From Natronospira sp. (GTDB lineage: Bacteria > Pseudomonadota > Gammaproteobacteria > Natronospirales > Natronospiraceae), in contig PWMQ01000091.1 in the NCBI GenBank assembly GCA_003558125.1, positions 1-64,000 of the forward strand: a stretch of 64,000 nucleotides of DNA, in the 5' to 3' direction. The translations under genes were made by a program, and so were the position numbers. Below the pieces are notes generated by a model, which did not search any database, was not told the DNA's origin, and saw only the letters and a program-made list of their open reading frames with translations. Shown here piece by piece: positions 8,544-56,511 of this stretch; position 1 is the first letter of the stretch, and the number at the start of each line of letters is the position of its first letter.

Positions 8544-8768
8544 AGAGTTCAGACATGAGCAAACCCACCCGGTCCGGAGCCTACCTTGGGTGGTGATCAC
8601 CTGGGCCGTGCTAGCGGAGGGATTGGTTCAGTCTTATGCCTTGGTGCCATCCGGAGGCTTTTGATCGCGAATATATCCGCGATTTCAGCGGCCAAATCGA
8701 AGGCAATCAGCTCATCCCTTTGAAAGCATCCTCAGCGAGCACGGCCGAGGTGACCTCAACCAACGGTA
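8544..8768. other. Non-coding stretch downstream of gshA
   Basis: No convincing gene is visible here. On the minus strand a short open stretch (about 8600-8717) reads DELIAFDLAAEIADIFAIKSLR with no start codon or ribosome-binding site in frame. It could be a decayed gene end, but it is too short to assign. The structured repeat begins at 8769. Confidence 0.35.
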
Positions 8769-8982
8769 GGCCTAGGTGGCGACAGGCCTTTCCAAAACTG
8801 TGTGAGCCAGGGTGAGGCAAGACCGATGGTCCGGTGGACCATCGCAGCTTGCCGAACGCCCGCAAAGGGATGTGCGGACTGGACCGGGAGGCGGAGCAGG
8901 AATGCGCAGCCTTCCGGGCGAACCCAGAGCCTACATGGATGTATTAACGGCGTTCTTGGAAAGGCCTGTCGCCACCTAGGCC
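8769..8982 (+). repeat. Structured 0.2-kb dispersed repeat, copy 1
   Basis: The ends form a 27-bp perfect inverted repeat starting GGCCTAGGTGGCGACAGG on the left and ending CCTGTCGCCACCTAGGCC on the right. Inside are a GATGGTCC/GGACCATC hairpin, a CCGCA/TGCGG hairpin and a GACCGGGAGGC/GCCTTCCGGGC stem. A second copy lies at 56283-56511 in the same orientation with a highly similar core (for example GGCGTTCTTGGAAA and GCCTACA.GGATGTAT) but different terminal stem sequences. No transposase is nearby and no target duplication is evident. It fits either a structured non-coding RNA family or a MITE-like element; the sequence alone cannot decide. Confidence 0.8.
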
Positions 8983-56282: not shown

Positions 56283-56511
56283 GGTGGCGTAGCAGGGGCC
56301 GGGGAGGCTTTTCCAGGATTGTGGGCGACAGGGTGAGCCAAGACCGATGGTCCAGTGGACCATCGCAGCATGGCGAACGCCCGCACGAGGATGTGCGGGC
56401 CGGACCGGAAGGCGGAGCAGGAAAGCGCAGCCTTTCGGTCGCCCCCAAAGCCTACAGGGATGTATCTACGGCGTTCTTGGAAAAGCCTCCCCGGCTCCTG
56501 CGGGAGCCACC
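56283..56511 (+). repeat. Structured 0.2-kb dispersed repeat, copy 2
   Basis: The core matches copy 1 (8769-8982), including GATGGTCC.GTGGACCATC, AACGCCCGCA, GGCGGAGCAGGAA, GCGCAGCCTT and GGCGTTCTTGGAAA. The ends form a different long stem: GCCGGGGAGGCTTTTCCA (left) pairs with TGGAAAAGCCTCCCCGGC (right), then GCAGG/CCTGC and GGTGGC/GCCACC. The central stem GACCGGAAGGC/GCCTTTCGGTC has one G-U where copy 1 has G-C at that position. The flanks (56207-56282 and 56512-56582) hold nothing else recognisable. Confidence 0.8.

Follow-up and report, generated by a model that had tools for sequence, protein, structure and literature searches.

The small RNAs of the Csr/Rsm systems, CsrB (RF00018), RsmY (RF00195) and RsmZ, carry several hairpins with ANGGA loops. 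The consensus sequences published for CsrA are RUACARGGAUGU and (A/U)CANGGANG(U/A) (PMC6692469), and a CsrA dimer bridges sites separated by 10-63 nt and does so best when the distance exceeds 18 nt (PMC7652899). In Pseudomonas putida, RsmA, RsmE and RsmI pull down RNA of a long intergenic palindromic region and of ISPpu8 flanks, a result that its authors left open (PMC7937890). Palindromic repeats of the REP/BIME type and miniature transposable units (MITEs) are the other described systems with which the element reported here can be compared.

The window that we analysed, a stretch of 64,000 nt from Natronospira sp., contains two copies of this element, at 8769-8982 and 56283-56511. It shares with the Csr/Rsm sRNAs several ANGGA-loop hairpins, and its consensus and spacing fit one CsrA/RsmA dimer over two sites, but it is scattered between genes in dozens of copies, whereas the sRNAs come from one or a few dedicated genes; in addition, it is closed by a clamp of 24-33 bp, has no T-run terminator and finds no match in Rfam. 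The Rsm-bound palindrome at ISPpu8 sites of P. putida KT2440 resembles it by description, as a long intergenic palindrome and IS target whose RNA co-purifies with RsmA, RsmE and RsmI (PMC7937890). Like REP/BIME sequences, the copies are intergenic palindromic repeats near the 3' ends of genes, arranged as inverted pairs in some genomes. Unlike them, they are ~110-220 nt long and consist of a core of two hairpins closed by a stem free in sequence, not of a short palindrome of fixed sequence; the stem sequence is unique to many copies, and no 5' GTAG/GGAG tetranucleotide was seen in the base composition around it. MITEs offer a further likeness, since the element of one genome (G265) forms part of a 165-bp unit that is bounded by terminal inverted repeats and has 8-bp target duplications, but most copies, those of the window included, are without recognised terminal repeats or duplications, and copies at orthologous loci are under constraint. 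In our view, the element is best placed as a dispersed and partly mobile repeat with a clamp stem and a double-hairpin RNA architecture of the Csr type.

Two copies with a common plan

On the plus strand, the element consists of a first stem arm (P1, 24-33 bp), C[CT]GTG, a hairpin H1 with loop ANGGAN or AGGAN, GAGC, a short hairpin H2 with loop ANGGAN, TTYACRGCGT and the closing arm P1', and it reaches past P1 into conserved flanks. The preliminary description had noted similar cores and terminal stems that are complementary within each copy, and both observations are confirmed. The cores are 85% identical over 177 nt. In copy 1, the arms at 8769-8795 and 8956-8982 are complementary over 27 nt (100%), whereas those of copy 2, at 56292-56318 and 56475-56501, are complementary at 93% over 27 nt and are accompanied by an outer block, GGTGGC (56283-56288) with GCCACC (56506-56511), that pairs according to sequence and predicted fold. 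The predicted plus-strand folds have z = -9.4 (copy 1) and -10.3 (copy 2), and 0 of 200 dinucleotide shuffles fold as well.

Both copies are of a long form, in which ~105 nt, here called module E, lie inside the H1 loop of the short form. In copy 1, the 5' half of H1 (GTGTGAGCC AGG, 8800-8811) corresponds to GTGTGAGCCAGG-ATG-GCGAACC of the short copies, and its loop is split by an insert of three hairpins (8812-8916) that takes the place of the AT and is missing from short copies (model R1, match at 8809-8917, 71.3 bits, E 2e-12). Alignment to R1 places the second hairpin of the module at 8858-8879, with a GGGATG loop (GGA at 8868-8870) in the predicted fold, and the third, with apex GCAGGAATGC, at 8884-8917. 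The 3' half of H1 follows at 8917-8923, by comparison with short copies, and then come H2 (8932-8943; loop ATGGAT, 8935-8940), assigned from the core consensus, and the conserved junction TTAACGGCGT (8944-8953; consensus TTYACRGCGT in alignment A2). In copy 2, module E occupies 56330-56438 (R1, 73.8 bits, E 6.5e-13) and H2 lies at 56453-56464 with loop AGGGAT (56456-56461; core consensus). All these features are on the plus strand; an inverted partial copy of the conserved 5' flank of the repeat adjoins copy 1 on the minus strand (8579-8620, 81% complementary to 8730-8771 over 42 nt).

Copy 1 lies between the convergent genes gshA(+) and trmJ(-), and copy 2 between a GspH-like gene(+) and ispH(-). 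A position downstream of a minus-strand gene, which had been singled out, is therefore not supported as a special feature, since each copy follows a plus-strand gene as well. The gshA-trmJ spacer of two congeneric genomes is only a few tens of bases long and lacks the element, so that copy 1 was apparently inserted in the lineage of the window.

A large family of dispersed repeats

The element had been described as present in two copies, which is a large underestimate. BLAST with the 178-nt core against the 2.78-Mb assembly of the window's genome (G000) returned nine essentially full-length copies with module E, including both of the window, one truncated long copy and ~15 shorter ones. R2, a covariance model that covers the short core and the stem and whose per-genome counts are lower bounds, finds at least 37 copies in this genome, at least 26, 30 and 29 in three relatives, and at least 46 in G084. 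It matches 45 of 274 sampled gammaproteobacterial genomes; in a sample of the phylum, 16 of 299 genomes match, all of them Gammaproteobacteria. In the family of G338, 37 of 198 genomes match, including about 25 of genus g369, each with between at least 8 and at least 24 scored copies.

The window copies therefore belong to a large and apparently unnamed family of dispersed hairpin-forming repeats. Searches of Rfam gave no match to the window, none to copy 1 even at E up to 5, and nothing at the gathering score over the elements of ten related loci; we consequently reject a known Rfam family. We found no description of it in searches of the literature outside subscription journals. One exact pattern had no match in viral contigs, blastn with a window copy gave none in plasmids or E. 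coli, and the G265 element gave none in plasmids either; carriage by phages, plasmids or E. coli was rejected on these pattern and blastn searches.

Covariation and strand asymmetry

The stem sequence is wholly different among many copies of the same genome while the core remains similar. In an alignment of 94 distinct elements fitted to the model, 94.4% of the cells are paired, and P1 and core covary strongly (0.723, against 0.202 after shuffling and no more than 0.149 with the partners slid). An unfitted alignment of 13 sequences also covaries (0.485 against 0.228). The proposal of the preliminary description, that pairing is retained despite sequence change as expected from selection on a folded strand, is thus upheld by the 94 elements, and also by the orthologous copies and the strand asymmetry described below. 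Copies with non-complementary arms, which would have spoken against it, are few (L218, L211, L225, L229 and L230) and are exceptions among otherwise paired copies. The first is a mosaic of two stem types; in the other four, the core is gone, as is one arm entirely or for the most part, and the junctions lie within short direct repeats.

G-U pairs outnumber A-C mismatches 92 to 16 in the P1 of 124 distinct stems (p = 4e-14, an optimistic value because copies share ancestry, but with a clear direction), in a register chosen on Watson-Crick pairs only, without favouring G-U. A duplex, a cruciform or arm-to-arm correction would lead to equal numbers of both, and the excess therefore indicates that one strand folds. 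Nearly all of the 94 distinct elements have ANGGAN in both core loops. When every copy is counted, all 92 H2 loops of six nt and all 59 H1 loops of that length contain GGA; the distance from GGA to GGA is 20-25 nt (92 elements). The stem is a sequence-free clamp, and the informative part of the element is the core with its two ANGGAN loops.

Constraint at orthologous loci

We compared 2.5-kb windows around copies in the congeners G350, G415 and G451, and used eight of the pairs with homologous flanks. Of 425 core sites compared, 22 differ (5.2%), whereas the third codon positions of flanking genes have mostly changed at a proportion of 0.25-0.49 (six pairs measured). In P1, 32 paired double changes contrast with about five that break a pair. 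Loop changes number 13: the two N positions of ANGGAN account for 12, the first A for one and GGA for none (p = 1.7e-5). Since orthologs retain their own type of H1 stem and paralogs differ in it, homogenisation among copies does not explain the similarity. Judging from these comparisons, the copies are held at fixed loci by selection at the level of the host, and the initial notion of a selected fold was right in kind.

An origin of the stem from an inverted target duplication was considered and rejected: the sites that look empty (L211, L225, L229 and L230, and L427 in G265) are more plausibly explained by deletion between short direct repeats, and P1 turns over in place in orthologous copies.

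A candidate CsrA/RsmA-binding domain

C-G-closed ANGGAN loops 20-25 nt apart are, as a sequence pattern, what has been published for CsrA/RsmA recognition. The sequence CTACAGGGATGTAT, shared by many H2 hairpins, agrees almost exactly with the CsrA consensus; csrA is present in the genome of the window, and the Rsm-bound palindromic RNA of P. putida provides a precedent. We infer that the elements would be transcribed, bound by CsrA/RsmA and of regulatory effect. In a plus-strand transcript, the P1 stem, almost free in sequence, would clamp the core and keep it folded whatever its surroundings, and the core would offer two C-G-closed ANGGAN hairpins at a spacing that one CsrA/RsmA dimer could bridge. 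Dozens of copies may then bind the protein locally, at the 3' regions of mRNAs, or jointly form a distributed titrator. Module E has entered the first loop of the window copies, replaced its AT and added further GGA hairpins. Spread would have taken place partly as cargo of MITE-like units, followed by retention at fixed loci. A portable CsrA/RsmA-binding RNA domain, spread in part as MITE cargo and kept by selection, is in our judgement probable, if only slightly so.

Several observations go against binding by CsrA/RsmA. The GGA strand has no clear sense bias, as the upstream gene is in plus relative to minus orientation at 21:12 in the studied genus and 48:41 in the wider set, counts that rely on rough gene calls. 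In the window copies, the H1 loop is disrupted by module E, so that the loops of E, together with H2, would be presented instead. One metagenome-assembled genome (G212, 98% complete, fragmented into 270 contigs) gave no csrA hit despite intact ANGGAN copies. We rejected the co-occurrence of csrA as support, as it gives no usable signal to separate carriers from non-carriers: the gene is found in 41 of 45 element-bearing genomes and 194 of 229 others, which is not a convincing difference.

Mobility and module E

No IS end is apparent at the window copies, where neither terminal inverted repeats nor target-site duplications were recognised by eye. This does not extend to other genomes: in G265 identical copies with the same core lie in the 165-bp unit, whose terminal inverted repeats read GTAAyTATTCAGC; most of ten copies examined have 8-bp target duplications, and one unit is devoid of the hairpin. 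We take these ends to be IS66-like. Three copies of recent origin in G350 have P1 and flanks in common, along with imperfect terminal repeats. In G212, about 11 near-identical units of ~240 bp (L200-L204) with inverted ends AGGCGATT.../...AATCGCCT contain an E-like domain and often lie at contig ends. Different MITE-like carriers thus bear the domains. In G000, one element (L226, G000:C87) is broken by a sequence that reads by eye like a fragment of an IS110-type transposase, and another (L025/L231, G000:C35) carries, in the region of H2, a ~300-bp insert that has inverted ends.

Module E is itself a structured domain of three hairpins, with conserved joints G[T/C]GAG, GA[A/G]CG and TGGAC and an ANGGAN hairpin of its own. 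Of its 25 pairs, 17 have changes on both sides, 90% of the cells are paired (70% after shuffling), and covariation is 0.488 against 0.146 after shuffling. Its insertion turns GTGTGAGCCAGG|ATG|GCGAACC of the short form into ...AGG[GTGAG...CTTCCG]GGCGAACC, and it is found repeatedly in place of the AT of ANGG|AT|G loops, in H1, in H2 or in another E. It also starts directly after GG in the D-loop, anticodon-loop and antisense T-loop hairpins of tRNAs and in 5S hairpins, the upstream part of the target being duplicated, which looks like an unusual mechanism of integration or copying. At L210 (G005:C14), L024, L034, L035, L036 and L039, E lies beside tRNA or 5S genes with an upstream duplication of 17-45 bp, sometimes in tandem. 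No enzyme behind the module was found. E-like sequences are present in 23 of 274 genomes, and a pattern scan names among the carriers Halospina, Halomonas, Bisbaumannia, Solimonas and metagenome-assembled genomes of Ectothiorhodospiraceae, Nitrospira and Spirochaetales. A bolder proposal, which we put forward tentatively and would not ourselves expect to hold, is that of a self-nesting dispersed family of mobile RNA domains with a CsrA/RsmA-binding double hairpin as cargo, which would form a distributed titration or anchoring network for a global post-transcriptional regulator, built by transposition and expandable by modules inserted into its own loops.

Alternatively, the element may be a mobile single-stranded DNA hairpin whose folded plus strand is recognised by a transposition enzyme (HUH/Y1-like or other), with GGA loops serving as contact or target sites and E entering loops because the enzyme is bound there. 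Such a hairpin would account for the recurrent replacement of AT, with E nested in itself and in both core loops, for the insertions after GG in tRNA and 5S hairpins with their upstream duplications, and for the units that are fresh MITEs, and G-T pairs are tolerated by folded single-stranded DNA as well as by RNA. Yet orthologous copies remain loop-constrained long after insertion and keep locus-specific stems, mobility alone does not predict selection at the level of the host, and no partner enzyme was identified. We regard this explanation as unlikely.

Position near gene ends and significance

Stop codons lie within tens of nucleotides of the copies, whichever way these are oriented, and few copies separate divergent genes, as would be expected of a generic 3'-end structure of the REP/BIME kind, in which the hairpin shields the 3' ends of mRNAs or separates convergent genes and the loops serve another RNA-binding protein or the stability of the fold. 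The element is not an intrinsic terminator, a candidate that we rejected because no T-run follows P1 in 119 copies (T frequency 0.08-0.26 at +1 to +20), and a plain barrier hairpin does not require the conservation of A-GGA in both loops with N positions left free. We find this role quite improbable. Upkeep of the palindrome at the DNA level, by which arm-to-arm template switching would preserve complementarity without selection in what are junk MITEs, is disfavoured by these data and very improbable: it fits the derivation of many copies from MITE-like units and the deletions between short direct repeats that are typical of palindromes, but arm correction is strand-symmetric and cannot yield G-U over A-C at 92:16, and in junk the core would not have stayed at 5% divergence where neighbouring third codon positions have reached 25-49%.

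If the CsrA/RsmA-binding domain is real, mobile elements would have placed tens of CsrA/RsmA sites, as yet unannotated, in each of many bacterial genomes. The modelling of CsrA titration would change, palindromic Rsm targets such as that of P. putida might be explained, and the family would provide a clear case of repeats that supply a regulatory RNA domain. Even with another partner than CsrA, a hairpin family absent from Rfam, under strong loop selection and present in 45 of 274 genomes, needs an explanation and a name.

Some copies form higher-order arrangements. In G000, they often lie beside REP-like sequences. In G002, cores occur as inverted pairs ~320 bp apart at seven loci or more, and one locus (L342, G470:C1) has six copies head-to-tail with a period of ~228 bp and REP-like sequence in between. 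The hairpin motif GCAGGATTGC is found many times in a record titled Ruminiclostridium sp. UBA10951 (L054, L059, L062 and L069) and also in Kuenenia (L061, L065 and L074), in both cases in differently arranged repeats of GGA-loop hairpins.
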